Both the position numbers and the translations under genes were made by a program. From a virus, in the IMG/VR virus record IMGVR_UViG_3300023196_000690, positions 1 through 24,070 of that record: a DNA stretch of 24,070 nt. One strand, written 5' to 3'. Shown here piece after piece: positions 1,420-13,795 of this stretch. The first letter of the stretch is position 1. Each line of letters begins with the position of its first letter. The notes below the pieces were generated by a model. The model was not told the origin of the DNA. It searched no databases and saw nothing but the letters and a program-made list of their open reading frames with translations.

Positions 1420-2822
1420 CAGGCAATCCCTTTCAAATTACGCCGCAGTGGCTTGCCCCAAGACACGGACTTGCCACCCATCGCCGTCACCCCGTCACCA
1501 GCCAGCGTCAAGCAGACGGCGTCTGCGATGTCTGGCGAGTGCAGCCCACGGCGCTTCATCTCGTCCTTGCTCTCGGCCTTCATCTTGCCGTTGCTGCTGA
1601 AACTATACCTGATCGCGGTCAATTCGGCAAGCAACTGTTCATTCTTAGGCAGTCGGCTGGTGCGCTCCTCCAGCATCCCGCGCATCTTGAACCACAATTC
1701 ACTGCGAAGATTGGTGTAAGTCCCGCCCATCGACGGAGCCTCGGACACATTCACGCCGCGCACTGGCAGCCCCAATTCGCGCAGGCGGTCAACCACGCCG
1801 CCGCCCATGCCGATCACGTCAACCAGTATCTCCACGGGCTGCATGGATGGTGGCAGGCCGTCATACTGCGCCTTCACGCGGCCCACGGTCTGCATCAGAT
1901 CCAGCCCCTGCCAACTGCTGACCGCCGTCCACACCGAGCCAGCGCGCTCTGCCAGTGCCGACTTGTCCGATCCAAAGCGCGCCACGTCCAGACCCCAGAC
2001 AATCGTGCCGCCCTTGGCAGGCTCAATGTCGCGCTCCATCGCACTGTCCACCAAGTGAAACGGGATGATCGTGTCGTCGTCGGCCAGCGGGAACTCACCC
2101 AAGACGCGGATGCGAAACGCATTGCTATCCTCGCCGTAGCGCAGCCTCATCTCGTCAACGAACTCATCGCTGACCAGCTTACTCTCGACGCAGGACCAGC
2201 GGCGCGTCCACCAAGATCCAGCCAGCCGCGTTTGGCTTTCGTAAAACGTGCCGCTGGAGCGTGTCGGGTTGGATAGCAGGATCGTCACCGCCGAGTGACC
2301 CGACATCGACCCCGCAGCGGCCTCAAAGACGGCCTCTGGCACGCCTGACGCCTCGTCCACGACCAGCATGACATTCTCAGAGTGAACCCCAGCCAGCGCC
2401 TCTGGCGTCTCGGCACGCGATGTCCGAGCAGAGATAAACGCCTCAGACGGCGCGGCGATCAGTTCAACGCGATCAGACTTCACCGTCAGCATCGACTTCA
2501 GCGGCGCTGGCAGTTCGTTGATCCAACGCTTTAACTCCGCAAAAAGTGCGTCGAATAACTGTCCGCTGGTGGGTGCAGTCACGACGACCTTGTTGGGAAA
2601 CCTCAACAGCAGATACCACAGCATCGCCCACGAGGCCGCCGTTGACTTACCCGTGCCGTGGCCAGAGCGGATCGAGATCTTGCGCTCACCGCTGGCCAGA
2701 GCCTGCAGGAACTCGGCCTGATACGGCTGCGGCTCGACGCCGAGGATCTCGCGCACGAACAGCACGGGATCGTTGTGATACGCGGCGACAAATGCCTCCA
2801 TCGGGTTTTCGTCGTTACTCAT
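1419..2822 (-). CDS. terL: Terminase large subunit (packaging ATPase-nuclease)
   Basis: The motor that pumps DNA into the prohead and cuts concatemers. The 467-residue product (ATG at 2822) carries Walker A SGHGTGKS (catalytic Lys about 59), Walker B VMLVVDEAS (Asp156-Glu157) and the coupling motif LLSNPT (about 182-187). The RNase H-like nuclease domain shows WGLDVARFGSDKSA (Asp279), VDVIGMGG (Asp335) and HSPDIADAV (Asp434). All key acidic residues are present, so it looks functional. A GTG at 2831 in frame would add three residues; I prefer the ATG because GGGTGA lies about 5 bases upstream of it. The start overlaps the terS stop by 8 bases, and the stop is coupled to the next gene. Confidence 0.95.
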   Translation of the reverse strand: MSNDENPMEAFVAAYHNDPVLFVREILGVEPQPYQAEFLQALASGERKISIRSGHGTGKSTAASWAMLWYLLLRFPNKVVVTAPTSGQLFDALFAELKRWINELPAPLKSMLTVKSDRVELIAAPSEAFISARTSRAETPEALAGVHSENVMLVVDEASGVPEAVFEAAAGSMSGHSAVTILLSNPTRSSGTFYESQTRLAGSWWTRRWSCVESKLVSDEFVDEMRLRYGEDSNAFRIRVLGEFPLADDDTIIPFHLVDSAMERDIEPAKGGTIVWGLDVARFGSDKSALAERAGSVWTAVSSWQGLDLMQTVGRVKAQYDGLPPSMQPVEILVDVIGMGGGVVDRLRELGLPVRGVNVSEAPSMGGTYTNLRSELWFKMRGMLEERTSRLPKNEQLLAELTAIRYSFSSNGKMKAESKDEMKRRGLHSPDIADAVCLTLAGDGVTAMGGKSVSWGKPLRRNLKGIA

Positions 2823-3285
2823 CCTCGTCACCCGTCACGTCGATGGCCACCGCGTCAATCAATCCAACACGCACCTTACGCAGCGCGTCCAAGTGCATAT
2901 CGCCAATGCTGATGGTAACCGACTTCTCCTTCGGCGCAAACCTGTCTGGATGGTTGATCGCGGCAAACCACTTGCGCGTGTCAATCCGCTGCTTGGCCGC
3001 CGCCACGTCCTGTGACGTCAGGTCAGCCTTGACCGCCAGCGCATCGGCAATTTGAAGCGTATCCTCTGCCATCAACTCCGCGCTCTCGCGGCGTGCCTCA
3101 TCCAGCAGCTTGCGATACTCAGGATGCCCGTTGATCTGTCGGCTGACATAGGCGCGATCCATGCCAATGTCAGCCGCCAGAGCCGCAATCGACTTCCCGT
3201 TTGCAATGTGAGCGTAAACGAACTCTGGCCCGCCGAGGTCAGCCAGAACCTCAAACAATTTTTTCTTCATCGGTCTGCCTGCCAT
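2815..3285 (-). CDS. terS: Terminase small subunit (DNA-recognition component)
   Basis: The 156-residue product has an N-terminal helix-turn-helix (about residues 31-52, SIAALAADIGMDRAYVSRQI) followed by a helical segment with the typical small-terminase pattern AEDTLQIADA...DTRKWFAAINHPDRFAPKE, which suggests an oligomerisation core. The acidic C-terminus ends GDEDE. Small terminase subunits bind the packaging site and regulate the large subunit, and direct adjacency to terL supports the call. The start is preceded by GGAGGAGACACCG, a strong ribosome-binding site. This is the first gene of the leftward packaging operon and has a roughly 200-bp leader from the best candidate promoter. Confidence 0.88.
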   Translation of the reverse strand: MAGRPMKKKLFEVLADLGGPEFVYAHIANGKSIAALAADIGMDRAYVSRQINGHPEYRKLLDEARRESAELMAEDTLQIADALAVKADLTSQDVAAAKQRIDTRKWFAAINHPDRFAPKEKSVTISIGDMHLDALRKVRVGLIDAVAIDVTGDEDE

Positions 3286-3309
3286 CGGTGTCTCCTCCGT
3301 CCAGCAATT

Positions 3310-3325
3310 TATAAAAATTTTTATA
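3310..3325. promoter_or_regulatory. AT-rich perfect palindrome near terS (candidate -10 region or melting site)
   Basis: TATAAAAATTTTTATA is a perfect 16-bp palindrome 25 bases upstream of the terS start. It contains TATAAA on the leftward strand, but no convincing -35 lies 16-18 bases further upstream. It could be a late promoter needing an activator, or a DNA-bending site. Confidence 0.35.
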
Positions 3326-3468
3326 CACGGCGGGCGTGTGTTTGCATAGGGGTGGGGGGGGTCTACATATTTGGCTGGGTAAAAATCTGTGTGTGTTGGG
3401 TTGTCATAGCAACCGCACCCCGAAAACGTGCGGGTGGGGGGGGGTCAAAAGATGCCTGCCAGATCGGG

Positions 3469-3490
3469 CGGATGTTAGCGCTAACATCCG
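3469..3490. promoter_or_regulatory. 22-bp perfect palindrome resembling a LacI-family operator
   Basis: The arms CGGATGTTAGC and GCTAACATCCG are exact reverse complements with no spacer. The core TTAGCGCTAA, with its central CG, is the shape known for operators of LacI/GalR-family repressors in Alphaproteobacteria. It sits immediately downstream of a candidate leftward promoter (3502-3531), the classic place for a repressor to block transcription. No LacI-family gene is encoded in the window, so a host protein or a gene outside the window would have to bind it. Confidence 0.5.
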
Positions 3491-3501
3491 ATAATCACTA
3501 T

Positions 3502-3531
3502 TATGTAATGTGCGCACTCTAATGATATCAA
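3502..3531 (-). promoter_or_regulatory. Candidate leftward promoter for the packaging operon
   Basis: On the minus strand TTGATA (3531-3526, five of six to the -35 consensus) is followed after 18 bases by TACATA (3507-3502), a weak -10. An overlapping CATAAT is present but at 20-base spacing. The predicted transcription start would fall at the edge of the 22-bp palindrome. Weak by sequence alone; its location between a terminator and terS supports it. Confidence 0.35.
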
Positions 3532-3560
3532 TGACTTAGCATATTTAGACAAAAGATAAC

Positions 3561-3591
3561 GCCGACCTATGCTGTGCGTGCATGGGTCGGC
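3561..3591 (-). terminator. Terminator-like hairpin ending the leftward accessory operon
   Basis: A 12-bp stem (GCCGACCTATGC with GCATGGGTCGGC, one G-T wobble) encloses a 7-base loop. On the leftward strand it is followed by GTTATCTTTTG, a short interrupted T-tract. It lies 90 bases past the stop of the last accessory gene (3681), so it probably separates that operon from packaging transcription. Confidence 0.6.
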
Positions 3592-3680
3592 GCTGTTTGA
3601 CTGTGCAGAAATGTGTAGACAGATGGTCGGCTGTGCGTTCCCGCGCACACACGCGAGGCAGCGTGTCGCCGTTGTGGTGG

Positions 3681-5051: not shown

Positions 5052-5082
5052 CGACTTTCACCCCCTCAAACTGACCCAACTC

Positions 5083-5267
5083 GGCGCACCTCATTTTCCG
5101 CACCCTAAACCCCGCCAACATCAGGCGCACTTTAGGCGCACTACCTACCCCCCCTAAAGGGGGGGTATAGGATAGGTGCGCCGAAACTGCGCGCAACTGT
5201 CTTGTTCCGAACCGCCAAAAAGGCGCACTAGGCGCACCTCGGCGCACCTCAAATCTCAAGGTGCGCC
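5083..5267. repeat. Array of eight GGCGCAC(C)/GTGCGCC repeats (iteron-like)
   Basis: GGCGCAC occurs at 5083, 5124, 5135, 5222, 5231 and 5241. Its inverse GGTGCGCC occurs at 5175 and 5260. Adjacent direct copies are 9-11 bases apart, about one helical turn, and the array surrounds a G/C hairpin at 5146-5167. This fills a 255-bp gap with no convincing gene, in the middle of an otherwise tightly overlapping operon. Such phased two-orientation repeats are typical of initiator or regulator binding arrays; a replication origin or operator is inferred. Confidence 0.6.
5146..5167. other. C7-TAAA-G7 hairpin inside the repeat array
   Basis: TACCCCCCC and GGGGGGGTA form a 9-bp stem with loop TAAA. It is nested inside an outer inverted pair, GGCGCAC (5135-5141) and GTGCGCC (5176-5182), giving a cruciform-capable element of 48 bp. 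On either strand the hairpin lacks a T-tract, so it is not a typical terminator. An origin or protein-binding cruciform is more likely. Confidence 0.6.
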
Positions 5268-5269
5268 AC

Positions 5270-5291
5270 CCACGCCAAGACCACGCCAAGA
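5270..5291. repeat. Tandem 11-bp repeat, two copies
   Basis: CCACGCCAAGA is present twice head to tail (5270-5280, 5281-5291), directly abutting the last GTGCGCC element and followed by a partial third copy (CCACACC). It borders the iteron-like array and may be part of it. Confidence 0.6.
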
Positions 5292-5306
5292 CCACACCAC
5301 TGCCCA

Positions 5307-6882: not shown

Positions 6883-7325
6883 TCGAACTTCGCCGCCACT
6901 GGCATATCCGCCTGATCCTGATACTTGCCCTCATAGGCAGCATATTGCAGCGTGCGGTGGAACAGCACCTGCGCGATGCCAGCGCCTGCGGGAATGTATA
7001 TCTCCTTCTCACCCCAGTAGGCCAATTCCAGCGTCAGGAACCCCCGCCACGCTGGCTCTATGACCGTATTGAATACTGACAGCCCCTGCCGCGCCCAGCT
7101 TGACTTGTCGTGGACAACGCCCACCAAGTTCGGCGGCATATCAAACTCCTCAATGGCGCTGGCCAGTGTGAAACGCTTGGCAGACGACAGCCACGTTGGC
7201 TGCTTGAGGCGGATATCAAATCCAGCCTCGGTCAAGCCGTGGCTGACGCCATGCTCGCGGCGTTTCTCTGTCAGCATATTCTTGATTGGCGCAAGTTCGA
7301 GCAGCGCCGTCCCGTTGATGATCAT
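6879..7325 (-). CDS. dcd: dCTP deaminase / dUTPase-family enzyme
   Basis: Trimeric nucleotide enzyme that deaminates dCTP to dUTP (bifunctional members continue to dUMP), feeding thymidylate synthesis. The 148-residue product shows AGFDIRL (about 34-40), the signature KSSWARQGL (74-82), TVIEPAWRGFLTLEL (87-101) with the catalytic-type Glu100 of the deaminase branch, GAGIAQVLF (114-122) and the nucleotide-closing YEGKYQDQ (131-138). It is shorter than E. coli Dcd, mainly in the N-terminal half. The start at 7325 overlaps the upstream stop as ATGA. No thymidylate synthase is in the window, so dUMP would be handled elsewhere. Confidence 0.88.
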   Translation of the reverse strand: MIINGTALLELAPIKNMLTEKRREHGVSHGLTEAGFDIRLKQPTWLSSAKRFTLASAIEEFDMPPNLVGVVHDKSSWARQGLSVFNTVIEPAWRGFLTLELAYWGEKEIYIPAGAGIAQVLFHRTLQYAAYEGKYQDQADMPVAAKFE

Positions 7326-7780
7326 TTTGTAATCTCCAAAAAATGTCTTTGATTTTCTTCAACATATGACAGCGGAAGAATTGTCATCAGGTCTCCCCTG
7401 TTCGGGCGCGTGTGCAAGCCGAATGGACCCTTGTAATATTTTGTGCATCTGGCGCGCAGGTCGTCGATGATGTCAGACGGGTTTATCAGGTGAAAACCCT
7501 TTTGAGACCGCAGGGCAATCATCCTGTCAATTCCGTTTGGCACGCCCCACCCCTTTTGTGGTGTCGGCCTATTTACGGTGCGTAACTCCCACCACAAGGC
7601 ATAGTCAGTGTCGCCATGCCTGTGCGTGCTTTTTGGACCCTTGATGTCAACCCGACCAAACTCGGCATCCATCACGTCCCAATGCTCGTTCATATCCTCA
7701 TCCCGCGTGGCCATGCGAAGGATCTTATCCCCGCGAAGGCCGACGAACTCCAACTCGGCACTGACGCCGTTGTTACCCAT
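7322..7780 (-). CDS. PD-(D/E)XK-like phage protein of unknown role
   Basis: The 152-residue product contains ATRDEDMNEHWDVMD followed by FGRVDIKGPK (Asp45-x-Lys47) and WWELR (Glu65), then KGWGVPNGIDRMIAL and KGFHLINPSDI. This pattern recurs in marine-phage proteins and resembles the D-x-K core of restriction-endonuclease folds; nuclease activity is inferred. I chose ATG 7780 because GGGAG lies about 7 bases upstream. An in-frame ATG at 7816 would add 12 residues, but it falls inside the GTGGCC operator/promoter region. It is the first gene of the accessory operon, coupled to dcd by ATGA. Confidence 0.62.
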   Translation of the reverse strand: MGNNGVSAELEFVGLRGDKILRMATRDEDMNEHWDVMDAEFGRVDIKGPKSTHRHGDTDYALWWELRTVNRPTPQKGWGVPNGIDRMIALRSQKGFHLINPSDIIDDLRARCTKYYKGPFGLHTRPNRGDLMTILPLSYVEENQRHFLEITK

Positions 7781-7807: not shown

Positions 7808-7836
7808 GGGCCACATTTATAACCTAATTGTGGCCC
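7808..7836. promoter_or_regulatory. GTGGCCC inverted-repeat operator
   Basis: GGGCCACA (7808-7815) and TGTGGCCC (7829-7836) are exact inverted repeats, with centres 21 bp apart, about two helical turns. The site overlaps the candidate promoter for the accessory operon and shares the GTGGCC word with the sites at 12387-12396, 12476-12492 and 13280-13296. Confidence 0.6.
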
Positions 7837-7842
7837 CGTCAA
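7814..7842 (-). promoter_or_regulatory. Candidate leftward promoter of the accessory operon
   Basis: Reading leftward, TTGACG (7842-7837, five of six to -35 consensus) is followed by TATAAA (7821-7816) at 15-base spacing or TAAATG at 17. It begins just after the primase-helicase stop (7848) and points to the gene starting at 7780. One GTGGCC half-site lies in the spacer, as in the rightward promoters. Confidence 0.5.
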
Positions 7843-7847
7843 CGGGT

Positions 7848-10235
7848 TTATAGTCCAGCCTCGTCACCATTTATCCAGACGCCGACGATGATTGCAGCGA
7901 CTTCCCTGCGCGCCACTTCATCGCGCACCATCTCGCGCCGCAGCACATCGGTGTCTATCCACTTACGCACAATTGACTTGATGCGGCCCTTGTCCTCTGG
8001 CTTGTCCACGTCGAGGTTCAGCACCTCGGCAACGGCCAGCCCGATCCAGTTCTTTGCCTGCACATTCTCGCGCATCGGATCTGGCGCATTGCCGACGATC
8101 TTCTGGACCGCCATCGCGTGCCGAGCCGTCACCCCGTCGAAGGCGTCTGGCATCTCAAAGTTCGTCGCCACGCCGACCCACTCACTGTTGGCAATCTGCA
8201 CGCCGATCATTTTGTAATATGTCGCCTTGGCTGACGGTGGAGCCAAGTTGGCCTTGCCATCATCTATACGGAATATACCAACAGCATCTTTCTCAGGTAT
8301 CCCCAGCTTCATAAGTTCATCTGGGCTAACCTTATTGATAACACGCGCCGCCCGCACCGCGCCGATCAGCGCACCAGCGCCACGCACGCTGTCGATGCTG
8401 GCATCCTCGCCACCCGTCTTGCGGATGTGGTGGACCAGCATGACGCTGCTGTCGGTGACATCGGCAATGCGTCGAACCTGCGCCACGGCCTTGTTCATCT
8501 GGACGTTGTCATTCTCTAAGATGTCGTTGGCCCCTATCCACGGGTCGATGAACGTCACGCCGATGCCATGCTCAATGATCTTGGTCTGCATATGCTGGAT
8601 CAGCTTCTCGTTGACCACGACCTCGCCACGCGACAGGGCGGTAAACTTCATGCTGAAGTCTCGGCCAGCGTCGAGGAACAGCCAGCCCTCGACCTCCTCA
8701 CGCTTGATGCCGTAATGCTTCATCACGGCCAGCACGCGCCGCTGCATTTCATCAATCGGATCCTCCAAGTTGACCAAGTAGACCTTGGTGCGCTCATGCA
8801 CAGTCTCACCCAGCAGTGGCCTGCCAGTGCAGATGGACAGCGCCTCAACGATCTGCAGAGATGTCTTGCCGTTGCCGCCAGCCGCAGCCAGCAGGCTGAC
8901 AAACCCGCGCAGGTAATGCTTGCCGTATATCCACTGTCTGGGGCGCAGCGTGGCCGCATCGAACATGGTGTATGCTGTCGGGAAGGTTGGACCACTGACC
9001 GTGTCTGGAACGTCTACATGGGTCTCCGCCTGATCGCTTACGCCGACCACCTCCCGCGTGACGGTGATGTCCGCGAAACTGAAATCCTCCAGATCGTCTG
9101 CATCTGGCGGAGCGCCGATGTCTGCCATTGGCTCTCGGAATGGGTCAGGCGTGCGCGGGTTGATTTCCTCGCCATATGCCCGCACCGCCGCCTTGAAGTC
9201 GCCGCCGTGTTCATAGTGGACGTATAGGTCAAAGGCGTCACCCCACGCATACGCCATCTCGCCAATGCTCTTGGCCGAGCCAACACCCGCCGCCGCATCG
9301 CTGCCAGACAGGCTGACCCAATGATCGCCAAAGTCTTTCGTGGCGTATGATCCCGATGACTGGTAGCGGCTCTTGTATTGCTGGCTGCTGCCTTGGCGTT
9401 CATATCCATACAGGGCAAGCAGGTCGCTGATGCGCGTATTCTCGTTGAACACGTCCACAGGGTTGCGCTCGTTTGGCTTTTGCAGCATCCGCTTCTCGCG
9501 CTCGGCCAGACGCTTGGCTCGGTCCAGTGCAGACTGGCGCTCGGTCTCGGCCTCCCACTTCAAGATTGCGTCAACGCGATCCTGCAGGATTGACTTGGTG
9601 CATTCAAAGAAGCCCTCGCCCGCGTCACGCTCGAACTGATAGAACAGCGGCTCACCGTTTTCGTCTCTGCGCTCTGGCGGCACGTTTGGCAGGAACACGG
9701 GCTGACCAGCGCGTGCCAGCGCCCCGTCCGCTGCGATGCCGAACAGGCCGAGCGCCTCAAACAGTGCCAACTGCATCCTGACGTAAAGCTGTCCGCTGAT
9801 GGGGCTGGCCAATGGGATCAACACGCGCCACTTGCGCGTCTCCTCGGTGGACGATGCGCTGGAATAGATCAGCATCGCGCACTTGCCGCAGACCTCGCGC
9901 ACCGCGTTGGCCACGTCAGGCATCGTCGGATTGCCGCTGTCCACGTCCACGCACAGCATCCAGAAGTTGCCGCGCTCACGCTGCGCCTGATGCTCCCTGC
10001 CGTCAAATTTGCGATAGTCAGATGGAATGATGAACGATGCGGCCTTCTTGTCCACGGCCTGCGGTTTCGTCACCAATTGCGAAATTTCACGCAGCGTAAT
10101 GCCGCCGTATGTCGTCGCCTCGTTGTGCTTCTTGGTGTCAGATGCACCGTGCGCGACTAACATCATAGCCTTGTTAATTGCTGTATTCTTTGATAAACTC
10201 ATGGCGTGCGATATCCTGATCAATGTGTTGCACAT
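7848..10235 (-). CDS. Primase-helicase (bifunctional primase-like domain plus RepA-type AAA ATPase)
   Basis: The replication protein of the phage. The N-terminal third has features of archaeo-eukaryotic-type primases: FWMLCVDVDSGN with Asp97 and Asp99, then LIYSSASSTEETRKWRVLIPL and ADGALARAGQPVFLPNVPPER. A linker with a charged coiled coil (about 225-250) follows. The C-terminal domain is a RepA-like helicase ATPase with Walker A AAGGNGKTS (Lys457), Walker B GVTFIDPW (Asp564) and VMLVHHIRKTGG followed by RGAGALIGAVRAARV. At 795 residues it is full length. The start is uncertain: ATG 10235, or ATG 10202 (11 residues shorter) with AGGA 11 bases upstream. No DNA polymerase is in the window, so host polymerase is presumably recruited. 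Confidence 0.85.
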   Translation of the reverse strand: MCNTLIRISHAMSLSKNTAINKAMMLVAHGASDTKKHNEATTYGGITLREISQLVTKPQAVDKKAASFIIPSDYRKFDGREHQAQRERGNFWMLCVDVDSGNPTMPDVANAVREVCGKCAMLIYSSASSTEETRKWRVLIPLASPISGQLYVRMQLALFEALGLFGIAADGALARAGQPVFLPNVPPERRDENGEPLFYQFERDAGEGFFECTKSILQDRVDAILKWEAETERQSALDRAKRLAEREKRMLQKPNERNPVDVFNENTRISDLLALYGYERQGSSQQYKSRYQSSGSYATKDFGDHWVSLSGSDAAAGVGSAKSIGEMAYAWGDAFDLYVHYEHGGDFKAAVRAYGEEINPRTPDPFREPMADIGAPPDADDLEDFSFADITVTREVVGVSDQAETHVDVPDTVSGPTFPTAYTMFDAATLRPRQWIYGKHYLRGFVSLLAAAGGNGKTSLQIVEALSICTGRPLLGETVHERTKVYLVNLEDPIDEMQRRVLAVMKHYGIKREEVEGWLFLDAGRDFSMKFTALSRGEVVVNEKLIQHMQTKIIEHGIGVTFIDPWIGANDILENDNVQMNKAVAQVRRIADVTDSSVMLVHHIRKTGGEDASIDSVRGAGALIGAVRAARVINKVSPDELMKLGIPEKDAVGIFRIDDGKANLAPPSAKATYYKMIGVQIANSEWVGVATNFEMPDAFDGVTARHAMAVQKIVGNAPDPMRENVQAKNWIGLAVAEVLNLDVDKPEDKGRIKSIVRKWIDTDVLRREMVRDEVARREVAAIIVGVWINGDEAGL

Positions 10236-10237
10236 CT

Positions 10238-10277
10238 AGACCACGCTGGACCTCCCGCCAGCGTGGTCTTTCTTTTC
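10238..10277 (+). terminator. Rightward (antisense) terminator-like hairpin upstream of the primase-helicase
   Basis: A perfect 12-bp stem, AGACCACGCTGG (10238-10249) with CCAGCGTGGTCT (10258-10269), has an 8-base loop. It is followed on the plus strand by TTCTTTTC. That orientation would stop rightward transcription, yet all nearby genes run leftward. On the leftward mRNA the loop exposes GGGAGG, a ribosome-binding-site-like sequence, just before the primase start. Confidence 0.6.
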
Positions 10278-10334
10278 TATGTATCGGCGCGTTGGCGGTC
10301 AAGCTGATCACTCAGCCCGACCAGCGCATACATC

Positions 10335-10976
10335 CTAAAATGGAATTTCGTCATCCAGATCATTGCGCGGCTTTGGTGCGCTGTATGCCGTTTGCGCTGG
10401 CTCACCAAAAGGGTCCGCCGCTGCCGCTGGCTTCTCCATTGGCTTTTCAGAGAAATCGTCTAGACCACCTCCACCATAGACGCACTTGGTGACCTGCACG
10501 GCGTCAAAGAACAGGCTCAGGCCGTGGTTGCCATCTGGGTCAACTGTCGGTGCAGCGTAGAAGCGAATTGTGCCGACCGATCCACTCCACACGTTTGGAT
10601 CTGCCAGTGGCTGCTTGTCACCGCCGATGACCTTCGGCGCATCGTTGATCGTGCCGTCAGCCTTCGTGCCGTTGCGTTTGGCTCGGAACTCGACCATGCC
10701 GTCATCCAGCTTTTTCATGCCGAACACGGTCTTGAACTCGCCAATCTTCGCGTTGACTGCCTTGCGCGCCATGAAGTGCGCCTTCAGTTGGCCGTGCAGC
10801 TTGGCCGCCGCATCCATTGGCATCACCCAGTTGACGGTATATGCAGCACCGCTGGCTGTTGGCTGGCACTGCTCTGACCGCTTCTCGCCAGTGTTGTAGC
10901 GGTATGTCGCGGCGAGGCGCGGATACTTCAACTCAACGTCAGGAACGATCACCTTCAAGAAATCATCATTAGCCAT
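10335..10976 (-). CDS. Single-stranded DNA-binding protein (gp2.5/DUF2815-like)
   Basis: The 213-residue product has the domain layout of phage DUF2815-type ssDNA-binding proteins: FLKVIVPDVELKYPRLAATYRYN at the start, AKLHGQLKAHFMARKAVNAK, a long beta-rich OB-like region with WSGSVGTIRFYAAP and GLSLFFDAVQVTK, then a disordered Pro/Ala/Lys linker (about 180-205) and the terminal acidic DLDDEIPF. That acidic tail is the hallmark by which SSB proteins recruit partners. It is located between the RecE-like exonuclease and the primase-helicase, matching a replication/recombination module. Start by ATG at 10976. Confidence 0.82.
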   Translation of the reverse strand: MANDDFLKVIVPDVELKYPRLAATYRYNTGEKRSEQCQPTASGAAYTVNWVMPMDAAAKLHGQLKAHFMARKAVNAKIGEFKTVFGMKKLDDGMVEFRAKRNGTKADGTINDAPKVIGGDKQPLADPNVWSGSVGTIRFYAAPTVDPDGNHGLSLFFDAVQVTKCVYGGGGLDDFSEKPMEKPAAAADPFGEPAQTAYSAPKPRNDLDDEIPF

Positions 10977-10987
10977 TTTTAGTCTCC

Positions 10988-11791
10988 TCAGTGGTTAAAA
11001 TCATCGTCGCTTGGCGCATCAGCAAGCCAAGTCGGCAATTGGACAATGTTAAGGCTGGGCCATCCAGTTGGATAATCCTGCTCGGCCTCGGCCCGCTTTA
11101 TGACATGGAGCGTGTGCTGGACACGATCGTATGCATACTGCAGGTAGTCATCGGACAGCACATGGATGCTGACCGCATACGGTGGCTTTTTCTCGACGGC
11201 CACAAACATAAACTGATCGGCATCCTGATTGGCGAGTGAAAGCGCCTTCAGGTAAAATGCCGCCTGCATATCGTAACAGTATTTGCGGATCTCGCGCTCA
11301 AAGCCGCGTGGACTTGCATCCAGCGTGGTCTTGATGTCGATCACCAGCCCACGGTCGCGCACGAATGCGTCTGGCCGTGTCTTGAGGCGCAGCCCAGTCT
11401 CAGGGTCGTCGGCAAAGAATGACGCCTCTATCACCGTCGACTTGTTTTCAAGAAATGCGCGCACGTTGTCGTTAGCCAAAACCGACTGCGCCATTGCCTG
11501 CGCTTGTTCATAGTCTCCAGAGGTGAGAAGCAATTGGCCATTCATGGTGGCCGCCCGCTGCTTTGCCTTCCAGTCCGCGCCGCGCCGATCATCTGGACCG
11601 CAGACCACATAGTTTAGATGTGGCTCCAGCACCAGCGAATGCACGGCAGTCCCAAGATCCCATGCAGTCTTGGTCTCCCTCACTGCGCCCTTCCAGTGTG
11701 CCAGCGTGCTGTTGGCAACCGTCTTGACGGCAGACGACGATATGCCTTCCTCGGCGTGATACGTCTCGTTGAGCATATCCAAGATCATCAT
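10988..11791 (-). CDS. PD-(D/E)XK exonuclease (RecE/DUF3799-like)
   Basis: The 267-residue product shows the core of the phage exonuclease family used in recombination: ISSSAVKTVANSTLAHWKG at the start, LGTAVHSLVLEP with His51, LKTRPDAFV with Asp141, VIDIKTTLDASP with Asp152-x-Lys154, and YDMQAAFYLKAL with Gln176. All the metal and catalytic positions expected are present. It would resect double-strand ends, feeding the adjacent SSB-like protein; no RecT/Beta-type annealase is visible nearby. The start overlaps the resolvase stop (ATGATG at 11791/11788; either ATG is possible). Confidence 0.85.
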   Translation of the reverse strand: MMILDMLNETYHAEEGISSSAVKTVANSTLAHWKGAVRETKTAWDLGTAVHSLVLEPHLNYVVCGPDDRRGADWKAKQRAATMNGQLLLTSGDYEQAQAMAQSVLANDNVRAFLENKSTVIEASFFADDPETGLRLKTRPDAFVRDRGLVIDIKTTLDASPRGFEREIRKYCYDMQAAFYLKALSLANQDADQFMFVAVEKKPPYAVSIHVLSDDYLQYAYDRVQHTLHVIKRAEAEQDYPTGWPSLNIVQLPTWLADAPSDDDFNH

Positions 11792-12216
11792 GTCCGCATC
11801 TCCCTGTTGAGGGCCATGACTTCACGGGTGACGTAGTAAAACGTCTCCATGCCCATGTCGATCAGGTGGCCATACGGCATCGTCGGGTCCAGCACTGACG
11901 CCTGCATGGCGACACGCACGGGCAGCCTGTCGTATTTGTAAATCACGACTGGCTCCTTGTGGACTGACGTGGCGGCCTTGCGCGCCTGATCCCACCACGC
12001 TGGCTTGCAGCCAGTGCCGCTGGCGTATCGCTTGCACTCGATCACCCACGGCCAATCTCGGTCGTCGGCAATCAGGTCACCGTGATCGCCTGCGCGGTAT
12101 TGCTCCAAGTCCCGCTTCAGCTTGACGCCCAAGTTCAGGAAAATCTCGTTGGCAATCTCACGCTCAAAGGCCGCGCCCTTGTTGCGTCCGTTGACTGGTT
12201 TCTTCGCGTCAGCCAT
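11788..12216 (-). CDS. Holliday-junction-resolvase-like nuclease (PD-(D/E)XK)
   Basis: The 142-residue product begins with a basic tail, then GAAFEREIANEIF (Glu18), YRAGDHGDLIADD (Asp44/Asp47) and VIECKRYASG (Glu60-x-Lys62), the classic order of the archaeal Hjc-like and phage resolvase fold. A later AWWDQARKAA helix fits this group. It probably resolves branched DNA formed in replication or recombination. Its start overlaps the stop of the repressor-like gene by 8 bases, and its stop overlaps the exonuclease start, so all are expressed together. Confidence 0.78.
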   Translation of the reverse strand: MADAKKPVNGRNKGAAFEREIANEIFLNLGVKLKRDLEQYRAGDHGDLIADDRDWPWVIECKRYASGTGCKPAWWDQARKAATSVHKEPVVIYKYDRLPVRVAMQASVLDPTMPYGHLIDMGMETFYYVTREVMALNREMRT

Positions 12217-12367
12217 CGGCCAGCCCGTCAGGCATATCCTTGACCGCTACTTGCAGTGCAGCCCAGCGCATCATGGTGGACGTGGCGATGCCCATCTTGT
12301 TTGCCGCACTGGTGATCGCATCGAACTGCTGCTCACTCATGCGGACCTTTACAATCCGATCCTTCAT
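12209..12367 (-). CDS. Arc/MetJ-type ribbon-helix-helix protein, probable repressor
   Basis: A 52-residue product that is easily missed. It starts at ATG 12367 after a strong CAGGAGG about 5 bases upstream. It shows the RHH layout: beta-strand RIVKVRMS (4-11), helix EQQFDAITSAANKMG (12-26), then the S/T cap and helix TSTMMRWAALQVAVK (29-43). Such proteins bind as dimers to short repeated operators. The palindrome TGTGGCCACA (12387-12396) lies 20 bases upstream of this gene, and related GTGGCC sites overlap three promoters, so this is the best candidate for the regulator of those sites (inference). It is the first gene of the leftward replication operon and overlaps the resolvase gene by 8 bases. 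Confidence 0.8.
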   Translation of the reverse strand: MKDRIVKVRMSEQQFDAITSAANKMGIATSTMMRWAALQVAVKDMPDGLADG

Positions 12368-12382
12368 GTAGTCCTCCTGTGT

Positions 12383-12403
12383 CTAGTGTGGCCACATCTA
12401 GTG
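12383..12403. promoter_or_regulatory. GTGGCC palindromic operator in the divergent region
   Basis: TGTGGCCACA (12387-12396) is a perfect 10-bp palindrome flanked by two CTAGTG copies (12383-12388, 12398-12403). CTAGTGTGGCC reappears exactly at 12482-12492 within the rightward promoter. The site lies just upstream of the ribosome-binding site of the RHH gene, suggesting autoregulation. Confidence 0.6.
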
Positions 12404-12423
12404 ACCTTTTATCCCACAATCAA
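12395..12423 (-). promoter_or_regulatory. Weak candidate leftward promoter for the replication operon
   Basis: On the minus strand TTGATT (12423-12418) is followed after 17 bases by TAGATG (12400-12395), a poor -10 match. An alternative -10-like GATAAA (12413-12408) has no good -35. Whichever is used, the TGTGGCCACA palindrome would overlap or follow the start point closely. Confidence 0.3.
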
Positions 12424-12533
12424 GCCCTGAAATAAAGTTTGGCAAAATGTGTTTTTCTTTCGATTGCCTATTGAAGTGGCCCTAGTGTGGCCCTATATAG
12501 GATGCATAAGCAAGCAACCAAGGAGACAGACAG
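12421..12533 (+). repeat. Promoter-leader cassette, copy 1 (R1)
   Basis: This stretch and 13225-13336 are near-identical direct repeats. They share CAAGCCCTGAAATAAA, a 36-bp identical block (12447-12482 and 13251-13286), the CCC-TATATAGGAT box, and the leader TAAGCAAGCAACCAAGGAG. They differ chiefly in a 10-base patch after AAATAAA and in the bases inside the promoter spacer. Confidence 0.85.
12471..12499 (+). promoter_or_regulatory. Rightward promoter P1 with embedded GTGGCC operators
   Basis: TTGAAG (12471-12476), a 17-base spacer and TATATA (12494-12499) form a good sigma-70-type promoter. GTGGCC occurs at 12476-12481 and 12487-12492, exactly 11 bases apart and filling the spacer, so a bound protein would block polymerase. 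It drives the gene at 12534. Confidence 0.7.
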
Positions 12534-12857
12534 ATGCAGATCCAGATCAAAGAAGCCATCGCATACGAAGGTCCAGCAGTCCAGTACACGGGCGATGACG
12601 GTTACCCCACCGCCATCATCATGCCAGTCTTGGTCGCCATTGCCCGCGACGGTCGCTGGTTCCAGCTTCCCAACGGCATCGTGCGTGAGTACGACGACGA
12701 GTATGGCGACATGAATGTGCGCACCCGTTGGAACATCTGCAAAGCCAACGAGATGGCTGCGGCAATTAATGATCGCAAGTTCATCGATGACGAGCATTGG
12801 GTCGAGGTCAGCGAAGAAGGGATGGAAGCTTATAATTGTGGCGCGTATCAGTTCTGA
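12534..12857 (+). CDS. Hypothetical protein, first gene of the rightward operon
   Basis: A 107-residue acidic product without a recognised family. It has a beta-rich first half (QIQIKEAIAYEGPAVQYTG, PVLVAIARDGRWFQLPNG) and a helical, acidic second half (NEMAAAINDRKFIDDEHWVEVSEEG). Translation is supported by AACCAAGGAGAC with ATG 6 bases later, placed 34 bases after the -10 of P1. First position behind a strong regulated promoter suggests an early host-interaction gene, which is inference. It is followed by a C(TGCG)G-loop hairpin. Confidence 0.78.
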   Translation: MQIQIKEAIAYEGPAVQYTGDDGYPTAIIMPVLVAIARDGRWFQLPNGIVREYDDEYGDMNVRTRWNICKANEMAAAINDRKFIDDEHWVEVSEEGMEAYNCGAYQF

Positions 12858-12868
12858 CTTTCTGGTGA

Positions 12869-12886
12869 CCAGCCCTGCGGGGCTGG
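12869..12886 (+). other. Intergenic hairpin 1 with C(TGCG)G tetraloop
   Basis: CCAGCCC-TGCG-GGGCTGG forms a 7-bp stem. An outer TCTGG/CCAGA pair (12861-12865, 12890-12894) may extend it across a 3x3 internal loop. The RNA loop C(UGCG)G belongs to the extra-stable UNCG class. There is no T-tract, so RNA processing or stability is more likely than termination. Confidence 0.7.
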
Positions 12887-12926
12887 CATCCAGAGGGCCA
12901 ACCAATAGTAACCAAGGAGACTTACA

Positions 12927-13193
12927 ATGACAACGATCTCAATCAACACCGCAAAAAACCGCATCAACGTAAATGGTCGCGCATATCACGCAGGCCGCTT
13001 TGAGCAAATTGAAAAGACGGGCAGCGGCAAGTGGCAGGGCAAGGCATCTGGGCTTGACTTCACAATCTTTGGCGGTCTTGCGGCTGGTGGCTCACGCAAC
13101 GAGTGGTTTGTGAAGTGGGAAACTCAAGGGGTGCAAGACTTTGTTAAGTGCGGCAGCGCCATTGAGGCGATCAACTTTATCAACAAACAATAG
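12927..13193 (+). CDS. Hypothetical small protein (88 aa)
   Basis: Not recognised. It begins with beta-like TTISINTAKNRINVNGRAYH, continues with GKASGLDFTIFGGLAAGGSRNEWFVKWE and ends with a helix SAIEAINFINKQ. It resembles a compact beta-sheet domain with one C-terminal helix. Preceded by AACCAAGGAGAC (12910-12921) and hairpin 1; followed by hairpin 2 and a second promoter. It is probably co-transcribed from P1. Confidence 0.75.
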   Translation: MTTISINTAKNRINVNGRAYHAGRFEQIEKTGSGKWQGKASGLDFTIFGGLAAGGSRNEWFVKWETQGVQDFVKCGSAIEAINFINKQ

Positions 13194-13198
13194 CATTG

Positions 13199-13214
13199 TG
13201 GGGCTGCGGCCCCA
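13199..13214 (+). other. Intergenic hairpin 2 with C(TGCG)G tetraloop
   Basis: TGGGGC-TGCG-GCCCCA forms a 6-bp stem with the same UNCG-class loop and no T-tract. It lies 6 bases after the stop at 13193 and just before promoter cassette R2. Confidence 0.75.
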
Positions 13215-13224
13215 ACCAACCAAG

Positions 13225-13336
13225 CAAGCCCTGAAATAAATTTTATCTTCATGTGTTTTTCTTTCGATTGCCTATTGAAGTGGCCCGCGTGTGTCCCTAT
13301 ATAGGATATATAAGCAAGCAACCAAGGAGACTGACA
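13225..13336 (+). repeat. Promoter-leader cassette, copy 2 (R2)
   Basis: Near-identical direct repeat of R1 (12421-12533), 804 bases downstream and in the same orientation. It places a second promoter and leader in front of the gene at 13337. Differences in the spacer alter the second GTGGCC half-site to GTGTCC, which may change repressor affinity. Confidence 0.85.
13275..13303 (+). promoter_or_regulatory. Rightward promoter P2
   Basis: TTGAAG (13275-13280), a 17-base spacer and TATATA (13298-13303) match P1 exactly in the boxes. One intact half-site GTGGCC (13280-13285) and a degenerate GTGTCC (13291-13296) lie in the spacer. A weaker operator than P1 is predicted. Confidence 0.65.
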
Positions 13337-13795
13337 ATGACCAACAACGAAATCATCACCGCCGCATTTGCCGACCTAAACGCAAAGATGCTGGAGCGCC
13401 AGTTGGAGTGGGCATACAAGCGCCAAGCAGCGGTCAAGGCATTGGTTGAGGAATTGTCGCCAAAGCGCCGCAAGATGGGCGAGTGGGCATACTACGATGC
13501 AGTGTTCGCTGCCGCTGGTGGCAAGACTTGGTTCAACCTGCTGACATATGGCGGCATTGCAAAAAACGTCACCAAAAACGTCGATGCAATCATCGCAAAT
13601 CGTGACGCAAAGATCATCGCTGCGCTGGCCAAGGCTGGCATCACCGAGATCGCGCCGTTTGAATTGACCCACACCAGCGATGGCGTTGAAGGTCATTTTG
13701 ACATCGACGGCCACCGCGTCACCATCAAGACAATCTTGGCAGGCGGATACAACATCCAATGCCTTCACCAGCGCACCACCGTCAAGGTGCGCTAA
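13337..13795 (+). CDS. Hypothetical protein of the rightward operon (152 aa)
   Basis: The start at ATG 13337 is chosen because AACCAAGGAGAC (13320-13331) precedes it; the open frame extends upstream through the promoter but without a ribosome-binding site. The product is not recognised. The N-terminal half is helical and basic (ERQLEWAYKRQAAVKALVEELSPKRRK), then WAYYDAVFAAAGGKTWFNLL and a KNV/NAKIIAALAKAG region. The C-terminal part is beta-rich (FDIDGHRVTIKTILAGGYNIQC). It is driven by P2 and perhaps P1, and followed by hairpin 3. Confidence 0.76.
   Translation: MTNNEIITAAFADLNAKMLERQLEWAYKRQAAVKALVEELSPKRRKMGEWAYYDAVFAAAGGKTWFNLLTYGGIAKNVTKNVDAIIANRDAKIIAALAKAGITEIAPFELTHTSDGVEGHFDIDGHRVTIKTILAGGYNIQCLHQRTTVKVR

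Follow-up and report, generated by a model that had tools for sequence, protein, structure and literature searches.

Arc of phage P22 is a small ribbon-helix-helix (RHH) phage protein that represses early transcription; the half-sites it binds, inside the promoter it targets, are spaced by about one turn. CopG, a tiny RHH protein and plasmid copy-number repressor, is the autorepressor of an operon containing a replication gene. NikA and MobC (PF21983) are RHH mobilisation proteins whose gene is paired with that of a DNA-cutting enzyme, a relaxase. The SvtR protein of the archaeal virus SIRV1 is an autorepressor that also binds at three further sites of the virus (PMC5569661).

The locus described here lies in a 24,070-base virus record (the window, by which we mean the whole stretch of DNA analysed) from a marine phage of an uncultured clade. 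We consider it likely that its 52-aa RHH protein is an autoregulated repressor and the putative reader of the word GTG(G/T)CC at four promoters, a regulator for which Arc, CopG and SvtR would be the known analogues. The target of Arc is a single divergent promoter region in a temperate phage, whereas the window protein would use the word GTGGCC to act at four promoter regions, that of the replication operon included; apart from the fold, no similarity to Arc was found at the sequence level. CopG belongs to a plasmid rather than a phage, and it controls a single operon through another word. SvtR works on archaeal promoters, and its site at the structural-gene target is long and degenerate and lies about 80 nt away from the promoter elements; the partner of the window gene, in contrast to that of NikA/MobC, encodes a PDDEXK nuclease. 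The features concerned are as follows.

12209..12367, minus strand: RHH regulator, 52 aa, opening the leftward replication operon, with a ribosome site of AGGAGG type
11788..12216, minus strand: PDDEXK endonuclease (PF24608, E 2.5e-14), overlapping the RHH gene
10988..11791, minus strand: exonuclease VIII-like recombinase (phrog_412, E 3.5e-74), same operon as RHH
10335..10976, minus strand: Gp2.5-like single-strand DNA-binding protein, SSB (phrog_112, E 2.4e-11), RHH operon
7848..10235, minus strand: primase-helicase (PF13481, E 4.3e-34), last gene of the leftward replication operon
7808..7842, minus strand: accessory-operon promoter, -35 TTGACG (7837-7842), N17, -10 TAAATG (7814-7819), inverted arms at 7808-7814 and 7830-7836
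7322..7780, minus strand: first gene past the accessory promoter (g7322), start chosen by ribosome site
12395..12423, minus strand: RHH promoter, -35 TTGATT (12418-12423), 17-bp spacer, -10 TAGATG (12395-12400), aligned with relatives
12387..12396, no strand: palindromic putative operator TGTGGCCACA at the RHH promoter -10, partner subsite GTGACC at 12401-12406
12471..12499, plus strand: promoter P1, TTGAAG (12471-12476), 17-bp spacer with GTGGCC at 12476 and 12487, TATATA (12494-12499)
12534..12857, plus strand: first gene past P1, matching no named family
13275..13303, plus strand: promoter P2, TTGAAG (13275-13280), 17-bp spacer with GTGGCC at 13280 and GTGTCC at 13291, TATATA (13298-13303)
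13337..13795, plus strand: first gene past P2, function unassigned; in the relatives L001 and L016 it lies upstream of RHH on the same strand

The leftward operon thus runs RHH, PDDEXK nuclease, exonuclease, SSB and primase-helicase. A second leftward group begins at 7780 and includes a dCTP deaminase, DUF6378 and the terminase small-subunit gene; because the start of its first gene was taken at 7780, the operator falls outside that gene. Judged by sequence and position, ORF 1419-2831 would encode the terminase large subunit. Between the SSB and primase-helicase genes, at 10238-10269 on the plus strand, lies a strong terminator-like hairpin of 12 pairs followed by TTCTTTTC, and at 3286-3680 there is a 395-bp noncoding gap with G runs and an inverted repeat, GGATGTTAGCGCTAACATCC, near 3471-3490.

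The ORF at 12209-12367, proposed in the preliminary description as an RHH gene, was confirmed as a minus-strand frame of 52 aa with an RHH fold by prediction and by profile. Its monomer model (AlphaFold, pLDDT 89) has helices at residues 12-25 and 29-43, with the N-terminal strand unformed, and the top Foldseek matches were the antitoxin Rv0298, CopG, TacA1 and Arc, at high probability and with E > 0.05, the modest E-values being due to the short chain. Searches with the single sequence gave no match because the protein is too short, and relatives were therefore reached through neighboring genes. A profile of 20 RHH homologues matches NikA (E 2e-4) and CopG (1b01/2cpg, E 2.3e-4), the latter among the best solved sequence relatives. 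Together, the predicted fold and the profile matches make assignment to the RHH (MetJ/Arc) superfamily firm. For the NikA-like family PF21983 the window protein scores 21.8 bits, below the gathering cutoff of 27, which two relatives pass (L061 with 54 bits, L101 with 27.5 bits). By alignment with CopG, K7 and R9 would be the DNA-facing residues of the strand, and both are unchanged in L001 and L016.

The preliminary description had also placed an operator beside the RHH gene, paired words in P1 and P2, and inverted arms at the accessory promoter, all of which are present in the sequence when checked: TGTGGCCACA occurs in the window as an exact copy only at its site, the two GTGGCC words of P1 are 11 bp apart within the spacer, the second P2 word is indeed the decayed GTGTCC, likewise within the spacer, and the arms GGGCCAC and GTGGCCC are exact. 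Words paired 11 bp apart in a spacer, overlapping the promoter, match the arrangement of an Arc-type operator. The promoter hexamers were assigned by eye and are backed by conservation; at the word-bearing promoters the sigma70 hexamers are mostly non-consensus, and a generic consensus promoter scanner listed none of the four. The P1 region (12417-12532, plus strand) is duplicated as the P2 region (13221-13336) over 116 bp at 89% identity, 804 bp apart, so that the words of P1 and P2 are not independent and, the two being copies of one unit, three independent promoter types rather than four carry the word.

The GTGGCC pattern exceeds chance. In the 1,562 bases of noncoding DNA the word occurs 7 times against a mean of 1.5, a count reached by 1 of 2,000 dinucleotide shuffles, and this is a better test of enrichment than the count over the whole window (30 against 16.7 expected). 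The word takes the form GTG(G/T)CC at 19 subsites over three phages, most often with C or A as the next base; that variation is restricted to its fourth base arises by construction of the search.

The only close relatives of the window are two metagenomic phages, L001 and L016 (the same contigs as L058 and L057, respectively), both of them incomplete contigs. Their replication-block proteins are 75-86% identical to those of the window and their RHH proteins 46-50% identical. A check set beforehand, for an RHH gene and words at the same promoters in relatives, found both kept with the same spacing in the two phages. Their P-type promoters read TTG(A/C)AG-N17-TATAT(A/C) and hold two GTGKCC words exactly 11 bp apart, and in every P-type promoter of the three phages except P1 one of the two words is GTGTCC. 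Past the primase-helicase gene all three phages have TTGAC(A/G)GGGCCAC-N15-GTGGCCC with a -10 of TA(A/G)ATG spanned by the word pair, the segment GGGCCAC-N15-GTGGCCC being identical in each; these accessory promoter words are invariant while the leader and the downstream gene diverge (g7322 in the window, an unrelated ORF in L001, a dCTP deaminase in L016). The RHH promoters carry GTGGGC-N5-GTGGCC in L001, GTGGTC-N5-GTGACC, a decayed site, in L016, and the palindrome plus GTGACC in the window, in all three cases 11 bp apart around a TA(A/G)(A/G)TG -10 and 17 bp past a TTG -35. Gene order around RHH is rearranged between the window and the two relatives, and the words are retained. L001 has in addition an HNH-like ORF (by eye) at 2728-3144, between the SSB and primase-helicase genes, that is absent from the window.

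A separate feature is a hairpin with about ten copies of a short word around it (window 5052-5306, L001 7650-7866, L016 11225-11400, L010 3281-3457). The hairpin centre CCCTTTAGGG is common to relatives while the flanking word changes, being TGCGCC in the window, ACTGTGG in L001, ACTGCGG in L016, GTATAA in roseophage CRP-821 and CTACAAA in CRP-811 and CRP-823; the repeated words with the hairpin are possibly iterons or an origin.

When 2.9 million viral contigs were scanned for exact matches, both the tandem and the inverted design turned up only in the window, L001 and L016, apart from one coding match. That match, an inverted design in L050/L051, was set aside as chance, as it lies inside a coding region of an unrelated phage, with the same sequence in two contigs. 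Neither design was found in the remainder of the 1.46 Mb of collected loci. Both are absent from the more distant roseophages CRP-811, CRP-821 and CRP-823, though these share the primase-helicase and exonuclease, and the RHH strand there is divergent (EIRFRV/EIRFKC); L002 is alike in having the same replication block, a different RHH strand and no such designs. L060 has an RHH protein with similar helices (STFMRWAAL) and a different strand (THVKS), and no GTGKCC pair was found at its own RHH promoter. The paper describing the CRP roseophages mentions neither a ribbon-helix-helix protein nor a repressor (PMC12629253). Scans of bacterial genomes found no relative and hence no prophage or host link.

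From the words, their spacing, promoter overlap and conservation, all observed directly, and from the predicted fold, we infer how the protein would dimerise, bind DNA, repress and set timing. It would form a homodimer of the CopG/Arc type whose N-terminal strand, with the residues K-x-R, reads GTG(G/T)CC. At P1 and P2, dimers would sit one helical turn (11 bp) apart on the tandem words between -35 and -10; dimers would also cover the -10 of the RHH gene's own promoter; and at the accessory promoter dimers would occupy two words 21 bp apart flanking the -10. Placed on the -10 or in the interval from -35 to -10, the words suggest by analogy with RHH repressors generally that bound dimers would block RNA polymerase, giving repression and feedback on the RHH operon. 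All promoters would fire at the onset of infection, and accumulation of RHH would then turn off both rightward operons as well as its own replication operon, and would restrain the accessory/packaging operon. Since the promoter designs are kept in L001 and L016, this one small protein probably times most early genes of the phage. No integrase or cI-type repressor was found among the proteins scanned, a part of those on an incomplete 24-kb contig, which makes lytic early shut-off likelier than immunity.

The window RHH is the first gene of an RHH-PDDEXK nuclease pair found in many marine phages. An alignment search with the nuclease showed that 316 viral contigs encode a relative; in about 70 of the 80 contigs kept from these, an RHH-like ORF ends where the nuclease gene starts, and 25 of the paired RHH proteins share less than 80% identity with one another. 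In L059 a Cro-like protein (HTH_3, E 2.6e-10) at 9772-10005 occupies the RHH slot before the nuclease, which suggests that this slot belongs to a regulator, and in L123 RHH is one gene further from the nuclease. In L078 (2345-2926) RHH forms the C-terminal portion of a longer ORF resembling, by eye, a GIY-YIG/T5orf172-type domain. Around the RHH promoter of the KESRV subfamily, three copies of the word TAGGA(T/C) hold fixed positions, two of them being 11 bp apart and flanking the -10; diverged members have it at other positions or orientations, and it is absent from two, L104 and L108. This pattern supports a link between word and protein, confounded by relatedness. TAGGA words in these phages are gathered at the RHH/divergent promoter and form no clear multi-promoter set, and the word GCGGTGCG of CRP-821 and CRP-811 is essentially confined to their own RHH promoter; the four-promoter set is therefore not general. 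The family-wide proposition that RHH promoters always carry repeated words is weakly supported, a blind repeat test on 22 non-redundant RHH promoters being weakly above chance (combined p 0.011).

The words could be operators read by another protein, either a second phage protein or a host regulator, with the RHH site elsewhere. Two phage candidates exist, g6036, with helix-turn-helix (HTH) matches, and g14505, which is HTH-like by eye and has a 49% homologue in L016; L001, however, keeps the accessory operators with no g6036 homologue detectable on its partial contig. A host factor would leave unexplained why the word is limited to a single small clade and missing from relatives that have the same replication genes. 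Each of the three phages also has a word pair right at its RHH promoter, and in the KESRV subfamily too a word marks that promoter, so we regard a different reader as unlikely. Were the words instead the product of promoter duplication and inheritance with no regulator, the 89% identity of P1 and P2 would be expected, yet the accessory and RHH promoters carry the word and are not P1 duplicates, the accessory words are invariant beside a diverged leader and downstream gene, and the noncoding enrichment is significant; this is very improbable.

RHH might, in a further alternative, be mainly the DNA-targeting partner of the adjoining PDDEXK nuclease, as in NikA/MobC, and bind promoters only as autoregulation of the pair. 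Fifteen of the 20 RHH homologues match the Pfam NikA-like family, the pair is retained in the many contigs counted above, and MobC of RA3 is reported to autoregulate a bicistronic mobC-nic operon (PMC4175270). The Cro-like protein of L059, the fusion in L078 and the separation in L123 are nevertheless more easily squared with a slot for a regulator than with an obligate subunit of the nuclease, and the words lie in promoters rather than in one origin-like array, which leaves a role mainly in nuclease targeting improbable, somewhat more so than a different reader.

Across the family, strand and word would pair as KVRx with GTGGCC, KESRV with TAGGAT/C, and EIRFRV with GGTGCG. We propose, tentatively and with real doubt, that RHH-PDDEXK is a widespread phage control module in which strand and word co-diverge, and that in the window clade the word may have spread to four promoters, turning a local autorepressor into a phage-wide switch. 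The 25 diverse RHH proteins beside one nuclease amount to a natural experiment on how an RHH protein changes its DNA word. If the proposed regulation is true, it would provide a readable early-gene circuit for an uncultured marine phage clade, made of one 52-residue protein, a 6-base word and four promoters.
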